Below are positions 24,737-44,100 of a stretch of 51,902 bases of DNA, in pieces. Position 1 is the first letter of the stretch. The number at the start of each line of letters is the position of its first letter. The position numbers and the translations under genes are program-made. A model generated the notes under the pieces. The model did no database searches. It saw only the letters and a program-made list of their open reading frames with translations, and was not told the DNA's origin. This stretch comes from an uncultured Roseburia sp. (GTDB lineage Bacteria > Bacillota > Clostridia > Lachnospirales > Lachnospiraceae), in NCBI GenBank assembly GCA_947567625.1, contig CANONN010000023.1, positions 1 to 51,902 on the forward strand, read 5' to 3'.

Positions 24737-27700
24737 ATGATGAGAGTGGAGCAGCAGAGTACAGGGGTGATTGATTTTATACAGCAGGCGGGGGCGGCGT
24801 CAGGGGATGCCCTGCCCGTAAATGCCAAGGCTTCTGCGGAGAAGAGCAGGGAGACCGGCACGGTGACGGTCAATATGAAAGACGTCACATACGGCAAACC
24901 GCAGGCGGAGGAAGACAATATTCTTGAGGACATGGTGCAGGGCACGGGCATGAGCGCCGCGGACCGCAAAAATCAGATGGCGGTTCTCTCCAACACCACA
25001 TCGGAGGAGGACTATGCCAAGATGCAGGAGGAAGGGTTCTCCCTGGACTCCACCTCGGCGAACACCATCGTCACCGTGACGGATAAGATTAAAGCGGAGC
25101 TTGCCAAGGCGGGAGTCGATATTTCCGCTTTCGGGGATGATCTAAGCCTCGATGAGCTGGCGGAGATTACCGGCAGCCCGGAGCTTGCGGCACAGCTTGC
25201 GGCTGCCATGCGGCAGGCGGATTTGCCACTGACTAAGGACAATCAGCAGGAGGCGGCAAAGGCGTTCATGCAGGCGATGACGCTGAAAAACCCATCTGAC
25301 GGCGCCAAGAAGTATTTGCTGGACAATGATCTGATGCCGACGATTGCCAATCTCTATTACGCTCAAAATAACAGCGCCGGTTATATCGGGGGGATGCCCG
25401 TGGAGACGGATTCGTACCGCAGCCAGATCGAGCAGGTGATCCTGCGCGCCGGCCTCGATGTGGATGATACGACGCTTGAGGAGAGCCGGTGGATGATCTC
25501 CAACGATGTGCCGCTTACGCCCGAGAATCTTGTAATGCTGCATCGCTTAAACGCGGCGGCCGTCGGGGACAAGGCAGGCGATGCGGCGTTTCTCGCGGGA
25601 GCTGTCGCGGAGGCTGTCGCGGAGGGCAAACGGCCGACCGACGCGCTGCTGGTGCCCGATTACCAGCTGCGGGAACAGGCGGCCGAAGCCTGCGAGGTCA
25701 TTGCCCAGGCGACAGAGGAGGATTTGGTCTACCTGACAGACCGGGGACTGGCGCTCACTGTGGCCAATCTGCGGGAGGCGCAGGCGGTACGGCGAAGCGG
25801 CGCCGCGATACCGTCCGTCGGCGATATGGCGCGGCCGGCCAACCAGACGGCAGGCCCGGGCAGGGAGCCGGGCGGCGTGCCGGCCCAGGGTCAGGAGCCA
25901 GGCGGCGTGTTGGCCGAAAGCGGAGGAGTTGCAGCCACCGCAGGCGATGCGGCGTCATCGGCGGACAGCGCGGCTTTGCAGCGGGAAGGGCAGAACGGCG
26001 TTTCCGCGGCACAGCAGCGAGAGATGAATTTGATTACCGCCAGACGGCAATTGGAGGAGATTCGTCTGACGATGACGGTCGAGGCCAATTATGCGCTGCT
26101 CAAGAGAGGCATGTATCTCGACACCAAGCCGTTAGAGCAGCTGGTAGAGCAGCTTAGGAGCATCGAAAATTCCTACTACGAGATGCTTCTGCGGTCGGCG
26201 GACGTGGAACCGACCAGTGACAATACGGCCCTCTTTAAAGAGACTCTGACAAAGGTGGAGGGCATCAAGAGCGTGCCGGCCTATGTGCTGGGACAGAAGG
26301 ATATAGACTCTATCAATGCCGCGCATGAGAGCGGCAGGCAGTTAAAAGATACATTCGAGCGGGCCAACGAGCGCTATGAGACTTTAATGACCGCGCCAAG
26401 GGCCGACATGGGCGATTCGATTCAGAAGGCGTTTCGCAATGTGGACGACATATTGACGGATTTGTCGCTGGAAACATCGGAGGAAAACCGCAGAGCCGTG
26501 CGGATTCTCGCATATAACAGTCTGCCGGTCACGCAGGAGTCGGTTGCACAGATGAAAGCGGCGGACGAGGAAGTGCAGCGGGTATTTAAGAATATGACCC
26601 CGGGGGTGGTAATCCGCATGATTCGCGACGGCATCAATCCCCTGGACATGGATTTTCGCAGCGTGAACACGGCGGCGGAGCAAATCAAAAAAGAAGAGGG
26701 GCTTTCCGGCGAAGCGGAACGCTTCAGCGAGTATCTCTGGAAGCTGGAGAAAAACCAACAGATCAGCGAGGCGGAGCGCAGCTCTTACATAGGAATCTAC
26801 CGCCTGATTCACCAGATAGAGAGCAGCGACGGTGCGGCTGTGGGCGCATTGGTGCACCAGGGCCAGGAGCTGACGATGAAAAATCTTTTGACGGCGGTGC
26901 GCTCCGAAAAGAAGAGCGGGAAAATGGATTATGCAGTCGACGATGCGGCTGACGGCGTCGAGAGCACCGGTTATCAGAGTTCGATCACAGATCAGATTGA
27001 CGCGGCTTATCAGATGAACTGCATCAAGGATGTGAGCGAGGTCTTGAGCCCGGAGCGCATGCGCGATGTGCTGCAAAAAGTAAAAGACTGGGAAGAGATG
27101 ACGCCGGAACAGTTAAAGCAGGCGCTGTCCGAAGCCGCAGGAGACGAAGAGGAGGCCGCATATCTGAAAGAACAGTTGGGGCGTTTGGAGGAGAGCGCGA
27201 GAACCTCCATTGATTTTTACCATGTGCTGGAAAAATACGACGTTCCCAACACGGTCAACTATGTATTGGCGTTAAAGGCGATGAGCGGCAACAGAAACCG
27301 CATGTTTGGGCAGATCTTTGAGCAAAACGACGGCGAAAGCGAGCTGGCGGATGACAAAAAAGCGCTGCTGGAGGAGTTTGCCGATGCTTTTAGCGGCGAG
27401 GAGGCCATGGAGCGGGCGCAGCAGAAGTTGGAACAGCTGGCAGAAAGCAAGACCAGACAGGTGATGGGGCAGGAACATGTCACGAGCCTCGATCTGCGGC
27501 AGATGCGCATGATGTCTGCACAGCTGTCTTTGGGCCGCCAAATGGCAAAGCAGGAGCAGTATTCGGTTCCGGTGCCGGTCGGCGACGAGATCGTCAATGT
27601 CTCCGTCAAGTTAAAGCGCGACGCGGGAACCACCGGCAAGGTGGATGTGATGATGGAGAGCGAGCGTTACGGAAAAGTGGCGGCCACGTTTACCGCGGCG

Positions 27701-27994
27701 CAAGAGGGCGTGGACGGAATGATCGCGTTCGAGAGACCGGAGGCCAGGGAGCTTTTTGCACAGCAGAGAGAAGCTTTGGGGCAGGCGCTGACAGCCGAAG
27801 GGGAGACGGAGGCCAGCCTGCACTATGTAACCGTAAAAGACCTGGATTTCGCGCACTTTTCCATGGGAGCGTTCGGGGAAAAGGCGGAAAACGGTCTGGT
27901 AAACCGGGAAGACGATGCATACCGTGTGCAGACCGGGCGCCTGTTCCATATGGCAGAGAGCTTTATTCGCCAGCTTCGGACGATGGAGAGGTAA
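24737..27994 (+). CDS. Large DUF6240-like protein with FliK-like C terminus, 1085 aa
   Basis: Long helical, acidic protein with no signal peptide or membrane span. Repeated phrases such as NDVPLTPENLVMLHRL, RGMYLDTKPLEQLVEQL and YNSLPVTQESVAQMKAA suggest internal helical repeats typical of a Lachnospiraceae family I recall as DUF6240. Residues about 360-430 are Gly/Ala/Pro-rich linker. The last about 150 residues (VPVPVGDEIVNVSVKLKR, GKVDVMMESERYGKVAATF) resemble the C-terminal domain of flagellar hook-length control protein FliK. No flagellar genes are present, so function is inferred weakly. Start at 24737 or 24740 (adjacent ATGs) behind AAAGGA. The 3' end is duplicated downstream (27938-28065). 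Confidence 0.72.
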   Translation: MMRVEQQSTGVIDFIQQAGAASGDALPVNAKASAEKSRETGTVTVNMKDVTYGKPQAEEDNILEDMVQGTGMSAADRKNQMAVLSNTTSEEDYAKMQEEGFSLDSTSANTIVTVTDKIKAELAKAGVDISAFGDDLSLDELAEITGSPELAAQLAAAMRQADLPLTKDNQQEAAKAFMQAMTLKNPSDGAKKYLLDNDLMPTIANLYYAQNNSAGYIGGMPVETDSYRSQIEQVILRAGLDVDDTTLEESRWMISNDVPLTPENLVMLHRLNAAAVGDKAGDAAFLAGAVAEAVAEGKRPTDALLVPDYQLREQAAEACEVIAQATEEDLVYLTDRGLALTVANLREAQAVRRSGAAIPSVGDMARPANQTAGPGREPGGVPAQGQEPGGVLAESGGVAATAGDAASSADSAALQREGQNGVSAAQQREMNLITARRQLEEIRLTMTVEANYALLKRGMYLDTKPLEQLVEQLRSIENSYYEMLLRSADVEPTSDNTALFKETLTKVEGIKSVPAYVLGQKDIDSINAAHESGRQLKDTFERANERYETLMTAPRADMGDSIQKAFRNVDDILTDLSLETSEENRRAVRILAYNSLPVTQESVAQMKAADEEVQRVFKNMTPGVVIRMIRDGINPLDMDFRSVNTAAEQIKKEEGLSGEAERFSEYLWKLEKNQQISEAERSSYIGIYRLIHQIESSDGAAVGALVHQGQELTMKNLLTAVRSEKKSGKMDYAVDDAADGVESTGYQSSITDQIDAAYQMNCIKDVSEVLSPERMRDVLQKVKDWEEMTPEQLKQALSEAAGDEEEAAYLKEQLGRLEESARTSIDFYHVLEKYDVPNTVNYVLALKAMSGNRNRMFGQIFEQNDGESELADDKKALLEEFADAFSGEEAMERAQQKLEQLAESKTRQVMGQEHVTSLDLRQMRMMSAQLSLGRQMAKQEQYSVPVPVGDEIVNVSVKLKRDAGTTGKVDVMMESERYGKVAATFTAAQEGVDGMIAFERPEARELFAQQREALGQALTAEGETEASLHYVTVKDLDFAHFSMGAFGEKAENGLVNREDDAYRVQTGRLFHMAESFIRQLRTMER

Positions 27995-28065
27995 GCCCAT
28001 CCGCCTGTTCCATATGGCGGAGAGCTTTATTCGCCAGCTTTGGACGATGGAGAGGTAAGCCCATC
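27938..28065. repeat. 64-bp tandem duplication at a convergent gene junction
   Basis: Copy 1 (27938-28001) contains the last 19 codons and stop of the DUF6240-like gene; copy 2 (28002-28065) repeats it with two mismatches. Copy 2 in antisense supplies the final codons and stop of the amidase gene. Confidence 0.92.
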
Positions 28066-28983
28066 CTCTTGGCGCAGAGTTTCGGTGTCAGCTTCGGACG
28101 ATGGGGAGGTAAGCCCATCCTCTTGGCGCAGAGTTTCGGTGTCAGCTTCGGATGATGGAGTTTTGAGATTATTTTCTTGCGTCATGGAAGCTGGGGGAGT
28201 TTCGGAGGAGGGGAGTAGCTCTTCTCTTTCTCCCTTGGAGGACGGCGCGCCGCTGCTGGGCCCAAGGATTTCTTCCGCAGCCATATAGTCCATAATACCC
28301 TGGTAGACGGCCGCTACGATTTTTTGCTGGTATTCATCAGTCAAAAGCAGATCTGCCTCAGCGGGATTGCTTAAAAACCCACATTCTACGATAACGGTAG
28401 GTGTGGGTGTTTTTTTGAGCAGATAGTAGCTGTCGTTGGCTTTGGCGAGGCGGTGATTTTCGGGGTCAACATTGGCGATCAGGCTGTTTTGCAGTGTGTC
28501 GGCCAGCGTTTTGCCCGCTTCTGACTGACTGTAATAAAAAACCTGCGCGCCCTTGATATCGGGCGTCGTATAGCTGTTCTGGTGGATGCTGACGGTGAAG
28601 ACAGGGTTGACCTCAGTGATCAGTTTACAGCGGTTTTGCATATCGGACACTTTCTGATTTTTGACGCCGGCGTCGGCAAGGCAGCTATCGCTCTCTCTGG
28701 TGAGCACGACGGATACCTGGTCCTGTGCGTCAAAGAGCTCTTTTAATTGCAGGGCAATGGAGAGGTTGATATCTTTTTCCAGGGCGTCGTTGACACCGAT
28801 CTTGCCGGGGTCATCGCCGCCGTGCCCTGCATCAATAACGATGCAGGGCTTTTCTGCGGTGACATTTCTGCTGCTGACAAAGGCAGCCCCCTTTCTTGCG
28901 AGGAAAAACGAGGCGGTGATGATCACCAGCGCCATGACGAGTTCAATTTTTTTCTTTGCGTTTTTTACTCTGAGATTCTTCAT
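28027..28983 (-). CDS. N-acetylmuramoyl-L-alanine amidase (Amidase_3), 318 aa
   Basis: Zinc amidase that cuts the MurNAc-L-Ala bond of peptidoglycan. An N-terminal signal anchor (about residues 14-34) is followed by the Amidase_3 domain. Expected zinc ligands and catalytic Glu are visible: DAGHGGDDPG, EKDINLSIA, SIHQNSY and VIVECGFLSN. The C-terminal about 80 residues are a Ser/Pro/Glu-rich low-complexity tail ending in 18-residue repeats. I start at the ATG at 28983, 6 nt after GAGG, rather than at 28989, which touches it. The enzyme acts outside the membrane in wall turnover. It converges on the DUF6240-like gene, separated by only 32 bp. Confidence 0.92.
   Translation of the reverse strand: MKNLRVKNAKKKIELVMALVIITASFFLARKGAAFVSSRNVTAEKPCIVIDAGHGGDDPGKIGVNDALEKDINLSIALQLKELFDAQDQVSVVLTRESDSCLADAGVKNQKVSDMQNRCKLITEVNPVFTVSIHQNSYTTPDIKGAQVFYYSQSEAGKTLADTLQNSLIANVDPENHRLAKANDSYYLLKKTPTPTVIVECGFLSNPAEADLLLTDEYQQKIVAAVYQGIMDYMAAEEILGPSSGAPSSKGEREELLPSSETPPASMTQENNLKTPSSEADTETLRQEDGLTSPSSEADTETLRQEDGLTSPSSKAGE
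28065..28159. repeat. 54-bp tandem repeat inside amidase 3' end
   Basis: Units begin at 28065 and 28119 (the second is partial), period 54 bp, that is 18 codons. In the minus frame they encode repeated PSSEADTETLRQEDGLTS. Each shares about 30 bp with the adjacent 64-bp repeat. Confidence 0.9.
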
Positions 28984-29146: not shown

Positions 29147-31039
29147 TCAGGGGATTTTTTTAGTCCCTTTTTCGTATATTGCATGTCTGCTTATTTGAGG
29201 GATCGTCACCAGCGCTGTGCTGTTGATCTTTACTTTGGTAAGTTTGGTACAGTTCAAAAATGCAGTATCTTTGATCGTTGTCACATGCTTGCCGATCGTG
29301 ATGTTCGTCACCTTATTATTGCTCTTCATCGCATTTTTGCCGATGGTCGTGACTTTGTAGACGACGCCGTTTTTGTCTTTTACGGTATCGGGAATCTTGA
29401 TGGTCTTTCCCGTATTCTTTGTACCGGTAAATTCAACGGTCGGAGCTCTTCCACTCTTGGTTACTTTATAGTTATGTTTGGATGCGGTAAATTTAGCGCC
29501 TACTTTCTGTGCTGCCGATGCCTGTGAGCTGCCGGTCTGTGAATTGCCGGTCTGTGAGCTGTTTGGCGTTTCAGAACCTTTGGTTTCAGAGTTGGTTGGC
29601 TGAGAACTGCCAGTCTGTGAGTTGTTGGTCTGTGAGTTGTCAGTCTGGCTGTTACCCGTCTGTGAGCTGCCTGTCTGGGAACTGCCAGTCTGTGAGCTTC
29701 CGGTCTGGCTGTCACCTGTCTGGGAACTGCCGGTCTGTGAGCTTCCGGTCTGGCTGTCACCTGTCTGGGAACTGCCGGTCTGGCTGTCACCGGTCTGAGA
29801 ACTGCCGGTCTGCGAGCTGCCCGTCTGGCTGTCGCCTGTAATCTCGGAATCACCAGTTTCGGAATCGCCGGTCTGGCTGTCGCCTGTAATTCCGGCCGTT
29901 TTTGTCTTTAAAGAAACGGTGTCGGTTGCAAACAGTGCTTTACCCTCTGCGTCCTTGCCGACTACACGGTAATCGTATGCGGTGTCTGCGGCAAGGTTTG
30001 TGTCAGTGAATGTGTAGGTATAGGTTCTGGAAATCTTGGTAATATCAAGATTGTCTACAAAAACACCGCCATACTGTTTACCGGCTACAAAATAAACACT
30101 ATTTAATTTGTTGATATTTTCATTTTTAAAATTTAAATTACTGTTTTCATATACAACAGAACCATCTGAAATTCTTACAAGTTTCGCATCTACAGTCTGG
30201 CTTGCAAAATCAATCGCAGCCGTTAAACGGAGCCAGCCGGTTGTATCTCTGTTGATACCACCTTTGCCAGAGGATTCTTTATTTGATTTCCCGCTGCTGA
30301 CATTAGCCTGTTTCGTGATATCATTCCCGTTTATGGTGATAGAACTCCAGTAACCATTATCGTTTTGTGCATCTGCACAAATCACTAAAATCTGGCTGTT
30401 ATAGCCTGGTCCTTCAGATTCGTTAGAATCCAGCCAAGAGGATTTATTATTGGCACCTAATAATGCGAAATTAGAACTTTTGCCCTTTGTACACCCATCC
30501 ATTTTTAAGTCAATAGATACAACAGCATTATCATTAATATCTAAATCACCTAACTGCGTACCAGTATCACCACCTCTAGAACCCACACCGTAAATATAAG
30601 CAGAGGAGTTTTTGTTCTGTTCGCAAGTATCTGCTTCTAAAAATTCATTTGCCGAATGCTCCTTATTAATCAGATTAAATATGGATGTTTTGTCTTCAAA
30701 ATCTTCTGATACGACAGCTTCACTTGCAGTAATTTCATGTACTGTAATTTTTTCACCTGCTTCGCCGGCCGTCACCGTCTCCACATCGACCCAAGCATTG
30801 TCAACTTTCTTCTGTACTGTATACTGTGCAGCGTCCTCTGTCGCAAAATCAAATGATACGGTTTTGTCTGTGGCCTCACCTTTTGTGATAGTAGCCTCAC
30901 CTTTTGTTATCTCCGTCACAGCATCGGTCGGTGCACTCGGTGCGCCATCTTCCGCTTTTACGGCTGTTGCTGGCAGTACACTGGTAATTGTCATCGCCGC
31001 CGCGAGAAACAGTGCCAGCGCCTTATTCTTTTTTCTCAT
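29147..31039 (-). CDS. Secreted LamG-like/FN3 protein with SQTG linker and truncated LRR cassette, 630 aa
   Basis: Paralogue of the protein at 32214-34280. Signal peptide: basic start, hydrophobic ALALFLAAAMTITSVLPATA, then cleavage near VKA. A fibronectin III-like strand set (TVSFDFATEDAAQYTVQKK) is split by an inserted jelly-roll-like domain (about residues 120-340) and resumes at TYTYTFTDTNLAADTAYDYRVVGKD. A Ser/Gln/Thr/Gly linker of SSQTG and DSQTG units follows. The C-terminal BspA-like LRR cassette is cut short: it matches the other copies up to INSTALVTI and then ends in an unrelated 17-residue tail, losing about 55 residues. I chose the ATG at 31039, which matches the paralogue and has a purine-rich GGAAGAGAGAGAAG upstream. 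No LPXTG is present. Confidence 0.82.
   Translation of the reverse strand: MRKKNKALALFLAAAMTITSVLPATAVKAEDGAPSAPTDAVTEITKGEATITKGEATDKTVSFDFATEDAAQYTVQKKVDNAWVDVETVTAGEAGEKITVHEITASEAVVSEDFEDKTSIFNLINKEHSANEFLEADTCEQNKNSSAYIYGVGSRGGDTGTQLGDLDINDNAVVSIDLKMDGCTKGKSSNFALLGANNKSSWLDSNESEGPGYNSQILVICADAQNDNGYWSSITINGNDITKQANVSSGKSNKESSGKGGINRDTTGWLRLTAAIDFASQTVDAKLVRISDGSVVYENSNLNFKNENINKLNSVYFVAGKQYGGVFVDNLDITKISRTYTYTFTDTNLAADTAYDYRVVGKDAEGKALFATDTVSLKTKTAGITGDSQTGDSETGDSEITGDSQTGSSQTGSSQTGDSQTGSSQTGDSQTGSSQTGSSQTGDSQTGSSQTGSSQTGSSQTGNSQTDNSQTNNSQTGSSQPTNSETKGSETPNSSQTGNSQTGSSQASAAQKVGAKFTASKHNYKVTKSGRAPTVEFTGTKNTGKTIKIPDTVKDKNGVVYKVTTIGKNAMKSNNKVTNITIGKHVTTIKDTAFLNCTKLTKVKINSTALVTIPQISRHAIYEKGTKKIP
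29517..29890. repeat. SQTG linker repeats (minus-strand gene)
   Basis: Imperfect 15-bp units, usually alternating as 30-bp pairs, encode SSQTG/DSQTG/NSQTN pentapeptides on the minus strand. Such arrays can change length by slippage or recombination with the matching arrays at 33329-33764 and 44946-45315. Confidence 0.9.
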
Positions 31040-31180
31040 TTCTTCTCTCTCTTCCTTTCCTGATAGATGCGGAATCCATGTCATCTAACGTTTTCTCTGT
31101 GAACGGGACAAATAGCTTATTGTTGCTGCCCAAGATTATAGTACGAACAGATGCATGTATTCCTGAGTTTACAAGTAGCA

Positions 31181-31339
31181 AAACCAGCCTGTAAACTTGC
31201 AAAGAACTACTTCATTATTTGCAATTCTCAATACAGTCATAGGGATTATGTTTCCGCCGCGCAGCCGGGCGATGCGAGCACCCAGTTAGGGTATGTGTGC
31301 ACTGGGGGATGATGCGAGCATCACCTCAGTTCTTTACCT
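31181..31339. repeat. Left arm of 159-bp inverted repeat
   Basis: The reverse complement of 31181-31339 aligns without gaps to 32008-32166, with 11 differences in 159 bp (about 93% identity). On the minus strand it lies in the presumed leader of the gene ending at 29147. About 105 bp of sequence absent from the right side separates it from the conserved ribosome binding site. Confidence 0.93.
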
Positions 31340-31410
31340 ATTAAGATAAAATTTAGTTATTGTTAGATAGACAGTGTCCTTACGCCAACGATAATTAATA
31401 TTTTACTGTC

Positions 31411-31433
31411 AATTGGTGCTTAATTGGTGTTTA
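31411..31433. promoter_or_regulatory. Doubled TTGGTG motif, candidate recombinase-binding site
   Basis: TTGGTG occurs at 31413 and again at 31424, 11 bp apart and in the same orientation. The same arrangement (TTGGTG then CTGGTG, 11 bp apart) lies upstream of the tyrosine recombinase gene at 39538-39560. Direct repeats about one helical turn apart suggest cooperative protein binding. Confidence 0.4.
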
Positions 31434-31782
31434 TAAAATATTTTTGGCATAATTTATACAAAATCCAAAATACATTTTTATGTATATTGCATAAAATCAG
31501 AGAAAAAATTTTGACAATAATGTATTCCATAAAGCGCGATAGCATAAGGACAGGCTGTCAGATACAAAAAATTCATATTATTCAACACCTATGTCTGCAT
31601 CGGTGCAAAGGAAATTGTAAAGCATTTTATTTTTAAATGTTAAATGTTTCCATTCCATATATTTTCTGGAATATTTGGTGTGTTGCTGGGACAAAGAATG
31701 CAAATTCCTTGAAATATCAGCAAATTCAAGTTTTTAGCTAGCACAATATTTTCTTCTTATAGCAAAAAAGTTCTATAAAAGA

Positions 31783-31811
31783 TTTACAATGCGATTAATT
31801 GAGAGTATAAT
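31783..31811 (+). promoter_or_regulatory. Promoter directed toward the 32214 surface gene
   Basis: TTTACA (31783-31788), 17-bp spacer, TATAAT (31806-31811). The start would be near 31818, giving an unusually long leader of about 395 nt that includes the right inverted-repeat arm. Confidence 0.75.
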
Positions 31812-31859
31812 ATAGGCGTACTATATTACATATTTGAGGGAAAAGCATAGGGAGCATTT

Positions 31860-31955
31860 ATGTTTTTACAACATAGACGCTTACGGAGGGAGGCGGTAGT
31901 CGTAATATGGCAATACACCGAAATCGTGTGTTGTTCGTATATAGGGCTGTATTAA
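31860..31955 (+). CDS. Possible 31-aa upstream ORF in the long leader
   Basis: ATG at 31860 with GGGAG 5 nt upstream, beginning about 42 nt after the predicted transcription start. The peptide begins MFLQHRRLRREAVVV and is basic then hydrophobic. It could be a leader peptide or chance; no similar ORF is visible before the other paralogue. Confidence 0.3.
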   Translation: MFLQHRRLRREAVVVIWQYTEIVCCSYIGLY

Positions 31956-32007
31956 TTATGGAAAATTAAGCTTCATCATAGGGATATATTTGCGTCTGAG
32001 AATTATC

Positions 32008-32166
32008 AGGTAAAGAACTGAGGTGATGCTCGCATCATCCCCCAGTGCACACATACCCCAGCAGGGTGCTCGCATCGCCCGGCTGCGCGGCAAAAACATA
32101 ATCCCTGTGACTGTAATGAGAATTGCAAGTAATGAAGTAGTTGTTTACAAGCTTACAGGCTGGTTT
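32008..32166 (+). promoter_or_regulatory. Right arm of 159-bp inverted repeat; structured leader element
   Basis: Second copy of the element. As RNA it can fold with a closing stem of about 10 bp, GTAAAGAACT near its 5' end with AGTTxTTTxC near its 3' end. In the left copy this stem is fully paired; between copies a U-G pair is replaced by U-A, but one G-C becomes G-G. Inside lie TGATGCTCGCATCA and GGGTGCTCGCATCGCCC hairpins sharing CTCG loops. It ends 47 nt before the start codon. I do not recognise it as a known riboswitch class. Confidence 0.6.
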
Positions 32167-32213
32167 GATTGTCTGTGAACTTGCAAATATCAGGAAAGGA
32201 AGAGAGAGAAGAA

Positions 32214-34280
32214 ATGAAAAAAAAGAATAAGGCACTGGCACTGTTTCTCGCGGCGGCGATGACAATTACCAGTGTTTTCCCGGCAACAGCCGTAAAGGCT
32301 GAAGATGGCGCACCAAGTGAGCCGGCAGATGTTGTGACGGAAATCACAAAAGGGGAAGCTACAGTGACAGTGGGTGAGGCCACTGAAAATACCGTATCCT
32401 TTGAGTTTGAGACAGCAGATGACGCTGCACAGTATACGGTACAGAAAAAAGTTGACAGCGCATGGGTTGATGTGGAGACGGTGACGGCCGGCGAAGCGGG
32501 CGACAAGATCGCAGTGACCAGCCATGAGGCAGTTAAAAATATTTATTTCAATGACTTTGAAGAAAACAAAGATAATTTTGAAGAAAAAAATACTAGCTTA
32601 GTGTTTTCTCTGATGAAGGACACTGCATCCGTAAATGCGAAAACAGGAAAAGTATTGGGCTGCACCAACGCAGATGGTGAAAGTGACGCGTTTAGCCAGT
32701 ATAAAACAGCCATCTCAGATAAGGTCGTAGTTTCTATGGATTTTAAATTTGATGCCTGCAACAGTACAAATAAGAATGCCAGAATAAGTTTCCTGGGCAA
32801 CGAGAACATGTCTGCCAACTGGATCGATGAAACCAAAGATACTGTCATTTTTGATCTTTGTTTTAACGGTGGCAATCATAAATTTAACAATGTTACGGTC
32901 AATCAAACACAGGAAGCTTTGGATAAGTTCAAAGGTCAGGATGGAGAAAACGTGATTACAGGAGCAGAATCTACAGGCTGGTTAAATTTGTCGGCAATTG
33001 TTGATTTTGCTACGAAAAGCTTGAATGTCAAAGTTGTTCGTAATTCTGATCAGAGTGTTGTGTATGAAAAGAGTGATCTGTCATTCTTTAAAGAAACAGA
33101 CACTATGGGAAATATTGTCTTTGGTACGAACAAAGGCGGTGGTGTTTATATTGATAATTTCTCGATTGATGAAGCTGAACCCACAACTGTTTACACCTAC
33201 ACATTTACCGACACGGACCTTGTCGCGGACACCGCATACGATTACCGCGTAGTTGGCAAGGATGCAGAGGGTACAGCATTGTTTGCGACCGACACTGTTT
33301 CTTTAAAGACTAAAGCGTCTGGCAGCACAGGCGACAGCCAGACAGGCGATTCCGAGACAGGCGATTCCGAAATTACAGGCGACAGCCAGACGGGCAGCTC
33401 GCAGACCGGCAGTTCGCAGACCGGCGACAGCCAGACCGGCAGTTCTCAGACCGGTGACAGCCAGACGGGCAGCTCGCAGACCGGCAGTTCACAGACCGGT
33501 GACAGCCAGACGGGCAGCTCGCAGACCGGCAGTTCACAGACGGGTGATTCGCAGACCGGCAGTTCACAGACGGGTGATTCACAGACCGGCAGTTCGCAGA
33601 CCGGCGACAGCCAGACGAATAGCTCACAGACGGACAATTCACAGACCAACAGCTCACAGACAAATGACAGCCAGACGGGTAATTCACAGACCGGCAGTTC
33701 ACAGACGGGTGATTCACAGACCGGCAGCTCCCAAACCGGAGACTCGCAGACGGGCAGCTCCCAGGCACCGGCAGCACAGAAAGTCGGCGCTAAATTTACC
33801 GTATCCAAGCATAACTATAAAGTAACCAAGAGCGGAAAAGCGCCGACCGTTGAATTTACCGGTACAAAGAATGCGGGAAAGACCATCAAGATACCGGATA
33901 CCGTGAAAGATAAAAACGGCGTCGTCTATAAGGTAACGACCATCGGCAAAAATGCGATGAAAGGCAATAAGAAAGTGACGAGCTTTACGATCGGCAAGCA
34001 TGTGACCAACATCAAGGACAATGCATTTTTGAACTGTACCAAGCTTACCAAAGTAAAGATCAACAGCACAGCGCTGATAACGATCGGTAAAACGGTATTC
34101 AGCGGTGACAAGAATCTTGGGTCGATCGAAATCAAGAGTGCGAAATTAAAGACAGTCGGCAAGAACGCGCTGAAAAACACCAAGAAGAACATCAAGATCA
34201 AGGTTCCGAAGAAACAGGTGAAAAAGTATAAAGACCTGTTCAAGAATAAGGGACAGAAGAACTACAAAGTAAGCAAGTAA
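32214..34280 (+). CDS. Secreted LamG-like/FN3 protein with SQTG linker and LRR cassette, 688 aa
   Basis: Intact paralogue of the 29147 gene. Signal peptide ALALFLAAAMTITSVFPATA. A fibronectin III-like domain (VSFEFETADDAAQYTVQKK) is interrupted at about residues 105-320 by a jelly-roll-like domain (IYFNDFEENKDNF ... GGVYIDNFSID) and resumes with VYTYTFTDTDLVADTAYDYRVVG. About 145 residues of SSQTG/DSQTG linker follow. The last about 170 residues are a lysine-rich BspA-like LRR_5 cassette (TIGKNAM, TSFTIGKHVTNIKDNAF, KTVGKNALKNTKKNIKIKVP). It is secreted and probably wall-associated; no LPXTG or membrane anchor is seen. Start at 32214 has GGAAGAGAGAGAAG upstream. The ligand is unknown; the inserted domain suggests carbohydrate binding. 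Confidence 0.85.
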   Translation: MKKKNKALALFLAAAMTITSVFPATAVKAEDGAPSEPADVVTEITKGEATVTVGEATENTVSFEFETADDAAQYTVQKKVDSAWVDVETVTAGEAGDKIAVTSHEAVKNIYFNDFEENKDNFEEKNTSLVFSLMKDTASVNAKTGKVLGCTNADGESDAFSQYKTAISDKVVVSMDFKFDACNSTNKNARISFLGNENMSANWIDETKDTVIFDLCFNGGNHKFNNVTVNQTQEALDKFKGQDGENVITGAESTGWLNLSAIVDFATKSLNVKVVRNSDQSVVYEKSDLSFFKETDTMGNIVFGTNKGGGVYIDNFSIDEAEPTTVYTYTFTDTDLVADTAYDYRVVGKDAEGTALFATDTVSLKTKASGSTGDSQTGDSETGDSEITGDSQTGSSQTGSSQTGDSQTGSSQTGDSQTGSSQTGSSQTGDSQTGSSQTGSSQTGDSQTGSSQTGDSQTGSSQTGDSQTNSSQTDNSQTNSSQTNDSQTGNSQTGSSQTGDSQTGSSQTGDSQTGSSQAPAAQKVGAKFTVSKHNYKVTKSGKAPTVEFTGTKNAGKTIKIPDTVKDKNGVVYKVTTIGKNAMKGNKKVTSFTIGKHVTNIKDNAFLNCTKLTKVKINSTALITIGKTVFSGDKNLGSIEIKSAKLKTVGKNALKNTKKNIKIKVPKKQVKKYKDLFKNKGQKNYKVSK
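33329..33764. repeat. SQTG linker repeats
   Basis: Roughly 28 imperfect 15-bp units encoding SSQTG, DSQTG and variants (NSQTN, DSQTN). Low-complexity and in frame, hence a protein linker. Ser/Thr richness suggests an extended, possibly glycosylated stalk. Confidence 0.92.
33765..34280 (+). repeat. 516-bp near-identical 3' cassette, copy 1
   Basis: Matches 38862-39377 with only a handful of differences (for example GCACAG/GCCCAG and AAGAACTAC/AAGTATTAC near the ends). It encodes the LRR cassette. The flanking coding DNA is not similar, so the identity points to recent duplication or gene conversion of the cassette alone. Confidence 0.9.
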
Positions 34281-34607: not shown

Positions 34608-37600
34608 ATGAAAAAACACAAAAAATGGCTGGCGCTGTTTACAGCGGCGGCGATGGTTGCTGCCTCCCTGCCGGGACCCAATCTCACGGTAAACGCGGCA
34701 ACGGAAACGGGCAGCGTGACTGTCGAGGATGGGAGACGGGCGGAAACAACGGTTTATTATAGCCAGGATTTTCAAAATGCTGAGACATCCGTCGCGGTTT
34801 CACCCAATTATCCGGCGGGAATAGCGATCAAAGCAGACGGTGATAATAAGTATTTTTCATTCACATGTGGACGTCAAAATAATCGTAATGCATATATCGA
34901 ATTCCAAAACTGGACAAATACACTGGATGATACGGTAAATGAATACGTTATCGAGTTTGACGCAGCAATTACACACAGTACTGCAAACGCATCAAATATC
35001 TCAATTGCGAGTGCGAAACCTAAAGCCAATGAAGCGGTTGGGAGTAACTATATTTTCAATATGGTTCAGGAAAATGGTACGTCTTCCAAGTGGCAACTAA
35101 ATGGTGAGCTCAATACGGATAATTATGTAACACTTACACAGAAAGAGTGGTATCATTATTTAATTTATGTAAAAAAAGATGTGCAAATGATTTCCACGAC
35201 AATTGCACCTAAGAATTCTACAACCCCTGTGCTGGATAAGCGCATATCACCTTTTGACGGCAATGCGGTGTGGGGCATCAACCTTCTTAGTGGGAGATAT
35301 GACAGTGAACTGTGTATTGATGATATTACGGTTCGTGCCGTGGCAGAGAATGATGTGTTCGGAGACGTACCGCAGGAATCATATGCCAGAGCAATCTTTA
35401 CCTCTCAGCTGGGGACCACAATTGAACATCCGGCAGAGGGTGTTCCCGCTCATTATCCGATTACCGTGAAAGCGGAAGGCAGCCTGGGCGGAGATATGAC
35501 AGATCAGGCAGATATTGAATGGTCAATTGTAGGCCTTGAAACTGCTGACGGCTATGTCTCCTTTACCAAGGAGGAGGGTACCGGGCTTGGCACCGAGGGA
35601 GAGGCGCCGGATGGCGGCGCTACCGCCTACTTCAACGTCAGGAACGGCACGCCCAACGTCATTGGCTATGTGCAGGCGAAGGTGACGGTTGGGGACAAAA
35701 CGGAGACCATCCGCACCCCCTATGCGGTGATCGGCTCACAGAACGCCGCTGCCAACCAGCTGGCGCCTGCGCTGGGATACCCGAAGGACATGAACTTCTA
35801 TGGCGATTCTTTGGTTGGATATCAGGCTACCGCTGATGGCGCGGATGCCAGAGACTTGATTTTGAACAACTGGACCAGCTATGGTTCCAATAAGGTCAGA
35901 GAGATCATCCTTGAAAAAGATGCCGACAACATCAAATCCTTGAAATTTAGTTCCAGCGGCGGTACGTCCGGTATGTTTATCTATCCGTGGGCCAGCCAGG
36001 CCAGCCAGTATGTCATTGACTTTACCGCGAAGTTTACATCCGGCCTGTCATTTGGCGTCTATGATAAGACACCGAATATCGCCTCCTGCGATCCGCAGTG
36101 GACGGCTTCCTATGCTTCCGGTGTGCTCTCGGCCGGTACGGAGAGCATAAGCGGCCTCAAAGACAATGAGTGGTACCGCTATGTGATCTCGGCAGACCCC
36201 AGTGTGTCCAGCTATTCGGTAATGGTGTTTGACAGTACTGGTGCCAAAGTCGGCGAGACGGCGGAAGTTGCGATTACCAGCGCGGCCACTCCGAAGTATT
36301 TTGTTTTTTATGTGGGAACCGGTACGATGTACCTCCAGAAATTTGAAGCATACCGCCCGGTTGTTGCAACCATGACGGTCGCTTCTGACAAAGATGCGGT
36401 CAAAGTGCCGGAAACCGGCGGGCAGGTATCCTCTGTTGATGTATCGGCCGCGCTTGCCACAGCGGACGGCTTAAAAGTAACGGGCGCAGTAGAATGGTCC
36501 CTGGAGGAGGACTGCGAGATCGCAGAGATTGTATCCACGGGGCCGCAGACAGCGAAATTAAATGTTTCGGCAGGCGATTATGCCGGAACAATCACGGTTG
36601 TCGCGACAATGGGTGATAAGCGGGCGACAAAAGAGATCGTTCTCACCACATCAAGCGATGTCGTGGCTTTCGCGAAATCCACTGCTTCCATTACCATCCC
36701 GTTTGATGGGGAGGAAAATATCGAGGCGCAGTTTACGGCAGAGACGAGAAACAGCGACGGTGAAGTGATTGACGGCGGCGCGATTACCTACAGCCTCCTT
36801 GCCAAGGACGGCGTCACACCGACGAAAGTAAAAGGGATTACACTGGGCGAGGCTGACGGCAAGCTGGAGGTATCTTCCGGCGCCGCACCCGGAATCGTTT
36901 ATGTAAAGGCAAGCAATGCCAACAATCTCTCCTCCAAAGTAAAGGTCAACATCCACGGCTTAACGTTCGCGTTTGGCTCCGGCGAGCCGGAGGAGGGCTA
37001 TACGTCAGTGGACGCGGTACAGTATACAGAAAAACTGGGCTATGGCTTCCTGACCACCACCGGGCTTACCGTTGGGGAAGACCATGTCACCGGCAGCGCG
37101 GATTTCCGTTTCAAGGCAAATGTGCCAAACGGCAACTATGTCGTAAATGTAGACAGCACCTCCGCTACTGTTTATTCTGAGGCTGTGGATGCCGTGGCTA
37201 CCGCCCAGGGTATTGCAAAAACAGGCTCAAGCTTTAAAGCTGCTGTCTGCGACGGGGTATTGGATTTGACATTTTTGGCCGGCTCTGCGGTAAAGACGCT
37301 GTCCATTTCACAGGATACGATAAAGAGCGCACAGGAGAAACCGGCTGTCTATGCGATTGGTGATTCCACCACCAACAATACGGCCAACGGAGCGGCTTCC
37401 TGGGGCAACTGCGTGGCAGACCAGAGTGTGGCAGTGCCGGACTGCTTCAGCGGTTTTTCCAATAATGGCATGGCGGGACGCGATTCCGTAAACTTCTATA
37501 ACCAGGGGCGTTTGGAAACGGTGCTTCTGGCTGTCTGCCCGGGCGATTATGTCACGGTCAACATGGGCATTAATTCGGCCAATGACGGGACGGCAAACGC

Positions 37601-39377
37601 GTATGAGACGATGATGCGCTATTATGTGGACGGAATTATGCAAAGGGGCGCTGTCCCGGTGATCTTAACCCACACGCCGGACGGCCCGGTAGGCGACCGC
37701 CTTTCCCAGAATTACAACGCGGCGACCAATCAGTTTACCAACAGCCGCGCGGGCGACGGCAGGGTGAAGTTCCTAAAGCAGCTTGCCAAAGAGAAAGGTC
37801 TGCACTTAATTGACGTGGGCCAGGATATGCAGGATTGGATGAATACGCTTACCATAGACGATGTGACCGCGTATAATGCGGCCAACAACACGGCATTTAA
37901 AACCGTGCTTGAAATGGTGCAGAGCTGGTATGTGGACCACAACCACTATTATCCGTACCTTGGCATCCAGATCGGGAACCATGTCTTAGAAGAACTGAGA
38001 GTGCTGCATACCTTCAAGGCGGATATTGAGGAGCTCGACACATATAAGGCCGGGCAGCTGGAAGCGATCGATAACACAATCGCAACGGCAGACGATTCAA
38101 ATGCAGTAAAGGAAATCATCACAGCGGCAAAGGCAAAAATTGAGGCGCTCACATTTGACACCAGCAATGCCGACAAGGACCTGGCGGCTTATAAGGCAGA
38201 GGTGGACGCGATAGTGGCGAAGCTTGTGGAAGATATCGCGGCGCAGAAACAAGCGGAAGCTGAAAACGCAGAAAACATCACGGCATTTGAGCAGTATGTT
38301 GCAGAGCAGCTGACGGTGATGGAAAACATGGGGCAGGACGGCGACTCCAATGCGGTGAAGAAGCTGATTGCAGACGCGAAAGCGGAGCTGGGAAAAATGA
38401 GCTATGACGTGGCCAAAACGCTCGAGGAGAATAAAGCCGCAGTGACAGCCCGCGTAAACAAGCTTGCGGATGACATTGCCGCACAGAAAGAAGCGGAAAG
38501 CGGAAATACGGAGACAACCAACTCGGAGACAACCAACTCGGAGACAACCAGTACGGAGACGACCAACTCGGAGGCAACCGGTACGGAGACAACCAACTCG
38601 GAGACAACCGGTACGGAAACGACCAACTCGGAGGCAACCAGTACGGAGACGACCAACTCGGAGACAACCGGTACGGAGACGACCAACTCGGAGACAACCA
38701 GTACGGAAACGACCAACTCGGAGACAACCAATTCGGAGGCAGCCAGCTCCGAGACGGGCAACTCTCAGACGGGCAGCTCCGAGACAAAAGGCTCGGAGAC
38801 AACAAGCTCTGAGACGCCAGGCAGCTCCGAGACCGGGAATTCTCAGACGGGCAGCTCGCAGGCACCGGCAGCCCAGAAAGTCGGCGCTAAATTTACCGTA
38901 TCCAAGCATAACTATAAAGTAACCAAGAGCGGAAAAGCGCCGACCGTTGAATTTACCGGTACAAAGAATGCGGGAAAGACCATCAAGATACCGGATACCG
39001 TGAAAGATAAAAACGGCGTCGTCTATAAGGTAACGACCATCGGCAAAAATGCGATGAAAGGCAATAAGAAAGTGACGAGCTTTACGATCGGCAAGCATGT
39101 GACCAACATCAAGGACAATGCATTTTTGAACTGTACCAAGCTTACCAAAGTAAAGATCAACAGCACAGCGCTGATAACGATCGGTAAAACGGTATTCAGC
39201 GGTGACAAGAATCTTGGGTCGATCGAAATCAAGAGTGCGAAATTAAAGACAGTCGGCAAGAACGCGCTGAAAAACACCAAGAAGAACATCAAGATCAAGG
39301 TTCCGAAGAAACAGGTGAAAAAGTACAAAGACCTGTTTAAGAATAAGGGACAGAAGTATTACAAAGTAAGCAAGTAA
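34608..39377 (+). CDS. Secreted multidomain SGNH esterase with LRR cassette, 1589 aa
   Basis: Signal peptide (LALFTAAAMVAASLPGP) then a LamG-like beta domain (about 45-245), Ig/BIG-like region, a second jelly-roll (about 390-585), more Ig-like repeats (about 590-790) and an SGNH hydrolase (about 905-1135). Catalytic motifs are AIGDSTTN with Ser920, the NNGMAG glycine, VNMGIN asparagine and VDHNHYYPYLG carrying the Asp/His pair. This resembles rhamnogalacturonan acetylesterases (CE12-like). Two FIVAR-like helical repeats (about 1140-1300), a TTNSETT linker and the LRR cassette finish it. GGAGG is 7 nt before the ATG. Probably deacetylates plant pectin at the cell surface. No LPXTG anchor. Confidence 0.85.
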   Translation: MKKHKKWLALFTAAAMVAASLPGPNLTVNAATETGSVTVEDGRRAETTVYYSQDFQNAETSVAVSPNYPAGIAIKADGDNKYFSFTCGRQNNRNAYIEFQNWTNTLDDTVNEYVIEFDAAITHSTANASNISIASAKPKANEAVGSNYIFNMVQENGTSSKWQLNGELNTDNYVTLTQKEWYHYLIYVKKDVQMISTTIAPKNSTTPVLDKRISPFDGNAVWGINLLSGRYDSELCIDDITVRAVAENDVFGDVPQESYARAIFTSQLGTTIEHPAEGVPAHYPITVKAEGSLGGDMTDQADIEWSIVGLETADGYVSFTKEEGTGLGTEGEAPDGGATAYFNVRNGTPNVIGYVQAKVTVGDKTETIRTPYAVIGSQNAAANQLAPALGYPKDMNFYGDSLVGYQATADGADARDLILNNWTSYGSNKVREIILEKDADNIKSLKFSSSGGTSGMFIYPWASQASQYVIDFTAKFTSGLSFGVYDKTPNIASCDPQWTASYASGVLSAGTESISGLKDNEWYRYVISADPSVSSYSVMVFDSTGAKVGETAEVAITSAATPKYFVFYVGTGTMYLQKFEAYRPVVATMTVASDKDAVKVPETGGQVSSVDVSAALATADGLKVTGAVEWSLEEDCEIAEIVSTGPQTAKLNVSAGDYAGTITVVATMGDKRATKEIVLTTSSDVVAFAKSTASITIPFDGEENIEAQFTAETRNSDGEVIDGGAITYSLLAKDGVTPTKVKGITLGEADGKLEVSSGAAPGIVYVKASNANNLSSKVKVNIHGLTFAFGSGEPEEGYTSVDAVQYTEKLGYGFLTTTGLTVGEDHVTGSADFRFKANVPNGNYVVNVDSTSATVYSEAVDAVATAQGIAKTGSSFKAAVCDGVLDLTFLAGSAVKTLSISQDTIKSAQEKPAVYAIGDSTTNNTANGAASWGNCVADQSVAVPDCFSGFSNNGMAGRDSVNFYNQGRLETVLLAVCPGDYVTVNMGINSANDGTANAYETMMRYYVDGIMQRGAVPVILTHTPDGPVGDRLSQNYNAATNQFTNSRAGDGRVKFLKQLAKEKGLHLIDVGQDMQDWMNTLTIDDVTAYNAANNTAFKTVLEMVQSWYVDHNHYYPYLGIQIGNHVLEELRVLHTFKADIEELDTYKAGQLEAIDNTIATADDSNAVKEIITAAKAKIEALTFDTSNADKDLAAYKAEVDAIVAKLVEDIAAQKQAEAENAENITAFEQYVAEQLTVMENMGQDGDSNAVKKLIADAKAELGKMSYDVAKTLEENKAAVTARVNKLADDIAAQKEAESGNTETTNSETTNSETTSTETTNSEATGTETTNSETTGTETTNSEATSTETTNSETTGTETTNSETTSTETTNSETTNSEAASSETGNSQTGSSETKGSETTSSETPGSSETGNSQTGSSQAPAAQKVGAKFTVSKHNYKVTKSGKAPTVEFTGTKNAGKTIKIPDTVKDKNGVVYKVTTIGKNAMKGNKKVTSFTIGKHVTNIKDNAFLNCTKLTKVKINSTALITIGKTVFSGDKNLGSIEIKSAKLKTVGKNALKNTKKNIKIKVPKKQVKKYKDLFKNKGQKYYKVSK
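38509..38861. repeat. TTNSE linker repeats
   Basis: In-frame 15-bp and 30-bp units encode TTNSE/TTGTE/TTSTE pentapeptides, then SETGNSQTG. A different peptide from the SQTG arrays but the same position and period, directly before the near-identical cassette. Confidence 0.9.
38862..39377 (+). repeat. 516-bp near-identical 3' cassette, copy 2
   Basis: See copy 1 at 33765-34280. The two direct copies are about 5.1 kb apart; recombination between them would delete the esterase N-terminal region or swap ectodomains. Confidence 0.9.
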
Positions 39378-39676: not shown

Positions 39677-40879
39677 ATGGCAAAAGAAGAGACAAGAAAC
39701 GTGGACACCGGCATTATACAGATGGGAAAATCATACCGTTTTACTGTGTATATGGGCTATGATGTCGACCATCGGCAGATTCGCAAAACGATGACGTTTA
39801 CGCCGCCGCCGGGGTTGACAACACGGCAGGCCGATAAACTGGCAAAGGAACAATATATCATTTTTTCTAATAATTGCAAGGGGCTGTACAATTTGAGTGA
39901 AAATATGCGTTTTTATGAGCTGGTTGAAGACTATTTTTGTGTATATGCTCCCGTAAACCTCAAACCAATTACCATTTACAATTATAGAAAGCAAATTGCA
40001 TATCATTTCATGGATTATTTTGGAAACAGAAAGCTCAAAGGTATTACTACCGCTGCCATCAGCCATTTCTTCGCCGTCCACAGGTCAGTTATCAGGGGCG
40101 AGGAAAAGCCGTTGTCGCCCGGCAATGCCAAGCGGCTCTATGGAATTCTGCAAAGTCTGTTCAAATTTGCCGTCACGCAGGGATATATCAGGCAGACGCC
40201 CTGCATCAACGTGATACTGCCCAAAAAGAATCCGTTGGAGGAACAAAAGAAAATGTTTATGACATTGGAAGAGCTGCCGCGTTTTTTGCAGATGTTTGAG
40301 CAGTATTCTTCATTCAATACCATAATATTGGTGCTTTTATATACCGGTATGCGGGCAGGCGAATGTTTGGGGCTTCAGTGGGACGATATTGACTTTGAAC
40401 AGAAAAAGCTTCATATACGACATACATTGACGGATGTGGGAGGCAGGCATTTTCTCACATCGCCCAAATCGGCGACCAGTATCAGAGATCTTTATATGAA
40501 TGAAAGGCTCATTTCTCTGCTGAAACGGCATCGGGAAGAGCAGTGGAAACTACAGCGCGAAGTAGGAGAGCCATTTATACACCCGGAAATGGTGTTCACC
40601 TCTTCCACCGGAAATTATAAAGACCGCAGTATATTAAACACATCGTTAAAGCGTTTCCTTAAGGGAGCCGAGTTTGAATATTTGACGCTGCATAAACTCA
40701 GGCATACCAATGCGACGCTGTTGCTGAACGGCGGCATCGATCTTAAATTGATATCGGAGCATCTGGGACATGCGGGAATCCGGGTTACGGCGGAAACATA
40801 CACGGCAGTGCTGGACAGCTCCCGCATCAGGACAGCCGATGTGATGGAACAGATTATCCAAAATTGTAATTTTTTGTAA
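39677..40879 (+). CDS. Tyrosine recombinase/integrase, 400 aa
   Basis: Site-specific recombinase of the phage-integrase family. The N terminus (about 15-65, YRFTVYMGYDVDHRQIRKTM) looks like an arm-DNA-binding domain, then a SAM-like core-binding domain (about 75-170), then the catalytic domain. Catalytic residues are Arg226 (TGMRAGE), His339 and Arg342 (HKLRH), His365 (EHLGH) and nucleophile Tyr375 (ETYTAV); the beta-hairpin Lys is in SPKSATS. All look intact. Start at 39677 has AAAGGAG 8 nt upstream. No excisionase, relaxase, phage or conjugation genes are adjacent, so it is a solitary recombinase lying between two surface-protein genes. Confidence 0.92.
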   Translation: MAKEETRNVDTGIIQMGKSYRFTVYMGYDVDHRQIRKTMTFTPPPGLTTRQADKLAKEQYIIFSNNCKGLYNLSENMRFYELVEDYFCVYAPVNLKPITIYNYRKQIAYHFMDYFGNRKLKGITTAAISHFFAVHRSVIRGEEKPLSPGNAKRLYGILQSLFKFAVTQGYIRQTPCINVILPKKNPLEEQKKMFMTLEELPRFLQMFEQYSSFNTIILVLLYTGMRAGECLGLQWDDIDFEQKKLHIRHTLTDVGGRHFLTSPKSATSIRDLYMNERLISLLKRHREEQWKLQREVGEPFIHPEMVFTSSTGNYKDRSILNTSLKRFLKGAEFEYLTLHKLRHTNATLLLNGGIDLKLISEHLGHAGIRVTAETYTAVLDSSRIRTADVMEQIIQNCNFL

Positions 40880-41152: not shown

Positions 41153-44100
41153 ATGAAAAAAGCAAAGAAATGGCTGTCGCTCTTGACGGCGGCAGCGCTA
41201 GTGGTATCTTCATTTACTGTGATGCCGACGACGGTAAAAGCGGCTGCAGATGAAAATGGAGTTTACTTTAGCGAGAATTTTGATGAAGCCAATGTTGAAA
41301 TTATTAAGGCTGTACAAGGTCCGTCCCATGGACAGTTAGAAAGTGTAACAAAGGGGTCATTTACATATTCCGCCAAGGGTAAAAATCAAACCGGTAATGA
41401 CATGGATATCAGTGTGGCCGCAGTATCCGGGAACGTTTTATCCATAACAGGAACTAGAGGTGAGACGAGTTCACAGAGAGGAATTGCCATTGCGTTTGAC
41501 AACAGGCCTGCGAGTATGTCTGATATCAGCGAAGGCAATATCCTTGAGCTGAGTATGGATGTCAAAACGAACAATAAGTTTTATCTGTATAATGGTGCCG
41601 AGAGACCTAACAGTGATACCTCTGGTATCGGTATTGATTCCACAGTTGTGGAAGCGATGAAAGATAACTATGTACATTTTCGGGCGATTATCGATCCCAC
41701 GTCCCAAAAGCAGTATGTTATGGTGTCCGAGATGGACAGTGGAAAGCTGCTCTACATGAATGTGGCGGATAAGACGGATTCAGAAGTATTCGGAGGTTTT
41801 ACGTTTTTTAACGGAGCAACCAATGCATACTTGGACAACATCGAATTAAAGCAGTGTAAAAGGGCGGTTGGTGTAATTACTGTCAATGTCAATGAAAATG
41901 AAAGCGGGCTGGGCGACGTGACGGTGACGGCGACAGGCGATGGCGCGTCTGCCACTGTTACTACAGATGCAAGCGGCCAGGCAGTGTTTGTGCTTCCCGA
42001 TGGTTCGTATACCGTTGAAGCCTCACGGACTGGGTACGAGCATACGCCAGGCGAAAAGGATAACGACAGCAAACAGATTACAGTAGCAGGAGCCGATCAG
42101 ACACTCGATATGTCACTGCAGTTGATGACATATACGAAAGAGCCGGGAACAGTAAATTTGAGCGGTGGTCAGGCTTTTATTGCCGCGGCAAGAAAAGGTT
42201 CGGAGCCGTCTACAGCGACAGCATTTACTGCTTCCGTACTTGACCAGTACAATAACCCAATGGAAGACCTACCGATTACATGGGCGGTTTACCCTGCAGG
42301 AACCACAACTGCGGATGAAAATGTTACCATCTCTGACGGTGTTGTTTCTGTGGCAAATGGTTTTCAAGCGGAAGATAAGGTGGCTGCCTTTGATGTGATC
42401 GCAGAGGCAGAGGCAAACGGTAAGAAGGCGCAGGGCAAGTCGACGATTCTTGTGGGAAACAGTGATATTATCTACTATGAAAACATCAACTGGACTGTGG
42501 CCAATGGTGTCCGTAACAGTGTAAAAGACCTTGCAGTGCCTGTGACACTGCATGATATGTCAAGCGTAACGATTGACGTTCAGTTCCCTTCAGGAACAGA
42601 GGGGCAGGCTACACTGGTTTTGGTATCAGACAAAGGCAATTTGGCAGGTATCCAATTACAGTCAGATAATACGATAAAAGCTTGGACAGGATGGACAGGA
42701 AATATCGCTTTCAATCAGAGCGGTGATAAAGATGCTTTTTCAAATGGAGACGTTATTGTAGAAGGTTATGATAAAACGAAATCCGTACCAGTGACCTTTG
42801 TAATTGATAAGATAAATAAAAATATTACGGTTTCTGCCGGGGATAAGAGCGTGGCTCTTCCCATGGTGGTAGGTGTGGATGCCTTGAACGGTTTTGCACA
42901 TGGACAGTATAGGAATACTGGTGGAGTAAAAATTAGTAGTATTACAGTGGAAGAACCAGATCCGAATTCTCTGGACATTTTAGGTGATGCTGATTTTGCA
43001 AAGGTTTCCGGTCAGACAATCACGAGGGATTATAAATTGAGCCAGGCTGTTATTATTCCCGACGAGACATTTGCGTGGGATATTAGTAAAAAAGAAGGCA
43101 CGTTGAATACGGAAACTATTACAATCGGCGAGGGAACGCTGCGCGTTACAGATCAGGCGGAGCCGGGTGAGTATACTATTACAGCCGCAGGCTCTTCCAA
43201 TGAGGCAAAAAAAGCAGAGTTTAAAGTTACCATCGGAGACTTCCAGGAGTTTAAGCCGGAGAATATTGTGGTTTCCGGGGCACGGAATTACAGTGTCGGC
43301 GGTGATGGCGCTTACAGGATTACCAAGTTGACCGACGGTTACGGAGATGATGTGGCAGAATATCTGGCACAGACAGCGACATGGGAATCTGCCGATCCGA
43401 CCGTAATTGAGCTGACGGAATCACTGACGCCGGGCGAGGCAATTGCAAAGGCAAAAAAAACTGGCAAGACGACTGTAAAAGGAACGATCGTAAACGGTAC
43501 TAAGACATCGACTGTTGAGGTTCCGGTCAATGTTGCAGCATATTTTATAACAAAGGACGCGACAGGCGATAGTACGATCATTGAGGCAGATACGCTGGCT
43601 GCTGGCGGCCAGATTGTAGGATATCAGATTACCACCGCTAAGGATGGAAAGCTGGTAAAGCAGGAAGTTGTCAAAGAAGCGCCGACCAGTGTGGATACGA
43701 CGGGCGCTGATAAAGTGGAGGTTGCGCCGGTATTTAAACATGCGATTGGAGTAGCCGGAGATTTGAAAAAGGGCGGCGGATATGATTTTGAGGTTCCGGC
43801 GGATACTTACAACTTTACCATTACCAATAAAGGTACAGATCGATGCGACGTATATGTAAACAATCAGATGCTGGTCAACAACATGCTTCAGTATGGCTCT
43901 ACGCCGGATACGGTGGTAGTCAATGATATTGTAGTCAAAGAGGGTGTTGCCAGAATCGCGACGGACGACTATTCCAGCGGTAAGGATGAGAAGGTTGCAA
44001 ATCTCACCGTTTCCATTGTAAAGTCACCGTCTATCGTTGATCGGGTGAGAAAAGTATATGTTCTGGGCGATTCACTTGTTGCCATGTATTACAATGGCGG

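Follow-up and report, generated by a model that had tools for sequence, protein, structure and literature searches.

Head-to-head surface-protein paralogues with a closely similar leader in an uncultured Roseburia: a conserved regulatory element or the arms of an invertible promoter?

Two secreted-protein paralogues of an uncultured Roseburia sp. lie head to head across a segment bounded by mirrored sequences, which raises the question of whether this segment inverts to select one protein or the other, or whether the mirrored sequences are simply something that both genes carry. In the window, by which we mean the whole stretch of DNA analysed (51,902 nucleotides), a first-pass annotation had read the locus as an invertible promoter. 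The gene positions that it gave were recovered exactly, the left gene ending at 29147 on the minus strand and the right gene starting at 32214 on the plus strand, as was the 668-bp length of the segment between the arms (31340-32007). Its description of the right gene as the intact one is correct for the right frame, which is open over 688 aa, but the left frame is also open (630 aa) and is not broken. The two genes and the sequences between them comprise the following features:

29147..31039, minus strand: left paralogue, 630 aa, with a signal peptide (recognized by eye), a divergent middle, an SSQTG/DSQTG linker and a shortened LRR_5 C-terminus
30049..30724, minus strand: left middle domain, divergent from the right
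30741..31065, minus strand: left copy of the ribosome-binding site plus ~100 initial codons, sharing 86% identity with the right
31071..31165, minus strand: left-only leader segment of ~95 nt, from the alignment, predicted to fold into one long hairpin
31156..31206, minus strand: hairpin of the left leader, counterpart of the right one, equalled in stability by 6/300 random sequences
31181..31339, minus strand: left leader arm, 159 bp ungapped, with looser homology over 31166-31344
31340..32007, no strand: segment between the arms, 668 bp, with internal inverted repeats within chance
32008..32166, plus strand: right leader arm, 159 bp ungapped, with looser homology over 32003-32181
32140..32190, plus strand: hairpin directly upstream of the right ribosome-binding site, equalled in stability by 6/300 random sequences
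32188..32515, plus strand: right copy of the ribosome-binding site plus ~100 initial codons, sharing 86% identity with the left
32214..34280, plus strand: right paralogue, 688 aa, laid out as the left paralogue but with a longer LRR_5 C-terminus
32523..33189, plus strand: right middle domain, ~aa 104-325, divergent, L-type-lectin-like in a low-confidence model

At their C-termini the two proteins match LRR_5 (PF13306) above the curated cut-off, as do BspA-type LRR_5 surface proteins, from which they differ in having a middle domain that matches no Pfam family above cut-off; a low-confidence model likened this domain to L-type (legume-like) lectins, and it is possibly of that kind. Residues 1-626 of the 688 in the right protein were matched by the left one, which has no counterpart to the final ~62. 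Conservation between the genes is mosaic: DNA identity at aligned codons is 49% over the middle ~200 codons, versus 86% in the N-terminal and 80% in the linker/C-terminal block.

The inverted arms reported in the first pass (159 bp, 11 mismatches) were found again by alignment, with no gaps over 159 bases and 93% identity, and by BLAST (E 2e-65, far beyond chance); they are not free-standing, however, being one block of a larger inverted duplication that also covers 30741-31065 / 32188-32515 (86%) and 29201-30022 / 33192-34085 (80%). Read outward, each copy consists of the arm, a hairpin, the ribosome-binding site, the signal peptide, ~100 codons, the divergent middle, the linker and the LRR_5 C-terminus, and past a 95-nt indel the arm homology runs on into the ribosome-binding site, where the copies are 94% identical over 31 bp, and the signal peptide. 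Because the homology passes from arm through hairpin and indel to ribosome-binding site and signal peptide and returns at the C-terminus, we read the locus as an inverted duplication, in which the arms are best identified as the 5' leaders of the two diverging genes rather than as free-standing recombination sites. Our preferred reading is that a gene was duplicated head to head in inverted orientation and that the leader kept by both copies acts as a conserved cis-regulatory element; we give it about an even chance of being correct. No further copy of the leader was found in the organism's own genome, where only the two arms gave a meaningful E-value.

The first pass expected inversion to restore a full leader in either orientation, but the two leaders are not equivalent: ~95 nt of the left one (31071-31165) have no counterpart in the right. 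This left-only segment has mirrored ends, forms a single long hairpin (equally stable in 15/300 random sequences) and resembles a small insertion; searching the genome for other copies of it returned just short matches, with E of 0.8 or worse. We also considered a leader peptide, for which the right arm offers an ATG frame of 50 codons, and judged it non-conserved because the left counterpart meets a stop after 11.

Both leaders are predicted to form a hairpin next to the ribosome-binding site, even though the 3' half of this hairpin has diverged. Six of its 13 consensus pairs have changed on one side and are still pairable, in a fold selected from the very two sequences compared, and none of the 13 shows a two-sided compensatory change between the two leaders; one pair that could form within the hairpin is absent from the right copy. 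Stability of the whole leader was not unusual against shuffles (z 0.13 for the right, -1.49 for the left), nor was that of its 5' part, which 85/300 and 54/300 random sequences equalled. Rfam returned no match in 30500-32800 at E up to 5 and none in the whole window at gathering thresholds.

The leader has diverged far less than the neighbouring synonymous sites. Between the arms we counted 0.073 substitutions per site, whereas the left and right genes differ by dN 0.12 and dS 0.54 over the first 105 codons and by dN 0.06 and dS 0.31 over the C-terminal block. With open frames and dN well below dS, both genes look as they would if they were in use. The gap between 0.073 in the arms and a neighbouring dS of 0.54 means that the leader is either constrained or recently homogenized. 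The ribosome-binding-site/N-terminal block, at 328 bp and with a 41-bp exact run, is longer and yet has not been homogenized, which favours constraint on the leader, or recombination limited to the leader; constraint specific to the leader thus fits better than recombination in general. The longest exact runs between the arms are 51 bp and 28 bp, and the 51-bp run did not qualify as a protected block, as a run of at least 51 arises with a chance of 0.14 when 11 mismatches are placed at random.

If the inverted-duplication reading is correct, a mosaic secreted surface-protein gene would have been duplicated head to head in inverted orientation, and the copies would have kept the leader, the ribosome-binding site, the signal peptide and the C-terminal leucine-rich region while differing in a middle that may bind carbohydrate. 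The 159-bp arms would be a cis-acting control element upstream of both genes, either transcribed or bound as DNA, in a leader that would end in the hairpin adjoining the ribosome-binding site, and the divergent intergenic region would drive both genes through this leader without inversion. We infer that the pattern is due mainly to selection on a regulatory leader and that both genes are expressed without inversion. Counted against the first of these are the unremarkable fold of the whole leader, the lack of an Rfam match and a leader without known relatives, and counted against the second is the single strong promoter candidate, which leaves transcription of the left gene unexplained.

That candidate lies in the segment between the arms, where a consensus scan for promoters gave two principal sites:

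31614..31643, minus strand: weaker promoter-like site TTAACA-18-TACAAT, facing the left gene, 10/12
31783..31811, plus strand: top promoter-like site TTTACA-17-TATAAT, facing the right gene, a consensus match only

Only one strong promoter had been seen here in the first pass. The site at 31783-31811 is indeed the best sigma-70-type match (11/12). On a generic sigma-70 matrix it scores 11.59; among 300 first-order Markov sequences the 95% point was 10.82 and the highest score 12.54. It is one of nine promoter-like sites in 30900-32400 (4.3 +/- 2.0 in shuffles), weaker left-facing ones included: the left-facing site at 31643-31614 scored 9.24, close to the Markov median of 8.95, and another inside the left leader (31195-31166) scored 8.4 with 9/12. 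A second right-facing candidate, at 31799, overlaps the top site.

Inverted repeats therefore do flank a segment that holds a candidate promoter, itself identified by consensus only, and we weighed whether a rare RecA-type crossover between the arms flips the 668 bp in an A/B switch of the two proteins, which is the main rival explanation and one that we regard as possible, though less likely than not. The paralogues lie head to head, and their homology starts ~200 bp downstream of 31783-31811, the sole candidate in either direction above the random 95% point; homology that ends there fits what a promoter switch would require. The left and right halves of the spacer share no homology, so that one copy seems to be without a native promoter. 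The arms are more similar than the coding flanks, and their exact runs of 51 bp and 28 bp suffice in principle for homologous recombination. Inverting the segment in silico aims the promoter at the left gene (first base 31564, minus strand), as the first pass had predicted. Against such a switch stand the 11 mismatches between the arms, the neighbouring N-terminal block, which is also capable of recombination and was not homogenized, and a promoter that is a candidate by consensus match. Slightly less likely still is the fuller proposal that a homologous flip between mRNA leaders, with no dedicated invertase, changes glycan specificity while the leader retains control and the leucine-rich C-terminus stays constant.

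Inversion could also be site-specific, with frequent flipping by a recombinase that acts on sites in the arms. A tyrosine recombinase had been placed about 7 kb away, and such a gene is present 7.5 kb from the right arm:

39680..40879, plus strand: integrase-type tyrosine recombinase, Phage_int_SAM_3 + Phage_integrase

By our own arithmetic, from eight integrase-domain loci (nine matches) in the 3.42-Mb genome, a recombinase would lie this near by chance in ~4% of cases, which speaks for its involvement, but the remaining evidence makes a site-specific inverton very unlikely. The protein fell below cut-off in all 10 NCBIfam models listed, with the invertase models at 40 and 27 bits versus cut-offs of 221 and 222, and it resembles phage integrases, its phage relatives being ~28-30% identical (about 29%) in the best 20 of 2476 and carrying, in nearly every case, an integrase or recombinase annotation. 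We recognized no recombinase core in the arms, and only 14-15-nt repeat pairs surround the integrase. When 31040-32213 was compared with the window outside 30700-32550, just four 13-mers recurred; one falls within the integrase gene, whose flanks contain none, and the word that the left arm has in common with this gene we regarded as chance. Inverted repeats in the spacer likewise did not exceed chance, the best one in the tested interval (31345-32002) being equalled by 80/200 Markov sequences, and a small pair at 31375-31390 / 31537-31552 was accordingly set aside. The distance of 7.5 kb also exceeds the 5-kb limit for a proximal invertase in an inverton survey (PMC11892184). Relatives of the recombinase occur in 59/60 other genomes of the genus, at up to 36% identity among the matches listed, and it is probably a solo mobile-element integrase. 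The gene stands alone between two large surface-protein paralogues.

These two paralogues (34608-39377 and 41153-45832) are further members of the family, downstream of the pair, and 45 stretches across the genome match the right protein, its own included. Such a repertoire, together with conserved ends around a divergent middle, could suggest donor-acceptor variation, in which gene conversion swaps the middles between conserved ends and the leaders resemble each other as a side effect of recent conversion. Over their C-terminal 558 bp, the right gene (33723-34280) and the next paralogue (38820-39377) are 97.8% identical, which points to a recent duplication or gene-conversion event involving these direct paralogues; the equivalent part of the left gene is 86.6% identical to that of the next paralogue over 424 bp. 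Given the 97.8% identity, exchange of segments among paralogues evidently needs no inversion. With the two genes excluded, however, the closest match in the genome to the N-terminal and middle part of the right protein is only 42% identical, so that no recent exchange of middles is visible, and the N-terminal blocks stand at dS 0.54. We consider donor-acceptor variation quite unlikely as an account of the locus, and we retain the inverted duplication with a conserved leader.

Other genomes gave little to compare. The arm was found in no other genome searched: two of 60 others matched solely at the ribosome-binding-site/signal-peptide end, and 396 other genomes of the family, a set that may overlap the 60, gave short fragments only, in 11, with at most two candidates per genome scored among the matches listed, so that weak copies could escape. 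Seven of these matches lie inside open frames of at least 155 codons and four at the purine-rich ribosome-binding-site end, and we treated all 11 as chance or generic. An exact 22-mer from the arm was absent from genome and viral contig collections, from which the organism's own genome is perhaps excluded. Two of 60 other genomes in the genus contain regions related to the N-terminal/middle part of the proteins, with 26-36% identity. The locus is flanked by a 1085-aa protein (24737-27994) with DUF6240 and a sub-threshold FliK domain, which has matches in 58/60 other genomes of the genus, at up to 60% identity among the matches listed. With protein matches at 26-36%, and those listed for the FliK-like protein at 60% or less, there is no close relative in which orientation could be compared, and that a second orientation was not seen counts as weak evidence against a switch. 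Between this gene and the pair, two adjoining 54-bp direct repeats (28035-28142, 96% identity) occupy the 3' end of an amidase gene. A search of the open-licence literature, in the portions covered, returned no publication that describes the locus.

In the sap system of Campylobacter fetus, a single promoter lies between opposed surface-protein homologues with conserved 5' ends, and inversion, which has been demonstrated there, picks the gene that is expressed; those ends are almost the same over hundreds of bases. The Roseburia locus likewise has surface paralogues that lie head to head on either side of one candidate promoter, unique in our consensus scan, and are conserved at their 5' ends; it differs in that its arms are 93% and its coding ends 86% identical and that it is known from sequence alone. 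The architecture of such a switch is known mainly from S-layer genes. Lactobacillus acidophilus carries two such surface-protein genes, slpA and slpB, in one 6-kb segment, one of them silent and reportedly promoterless (PMC6015585); their interchange by inversion is announced in the title of Boot et al. 1996, cited there. The segment that inverts in L. acidophilus bears the genes, whereas in Roseburia the genes would stay fixed and the 668-bp promoter segment between them would turn. Invertons of gut bacteria, as a survey with PhaseFinder/PhaseFinderDC describes them, are regions flanked by inverted repeats, often near surface genes, called from reads in both orientations, and include cases in Clostridia with tyrosine-type recombinases nearby (PMC11892184). 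An example from Clostridium sp. D5 has repeats of 26 bp, to go by its coordinates (PMC11892184), whereas the repeats here are 159 bp long, are gene leaders and come from an assembled sequence only.

If the segment flips, the bacterium would alternate between two surface proteins that putatively bind glycans, using long gene leaders in place of short recombinase sites. If there is no flipping, the locus is still a useful warning that the mirrored, conserved leaders of duplicated genes can mimic the arms of an inverton.
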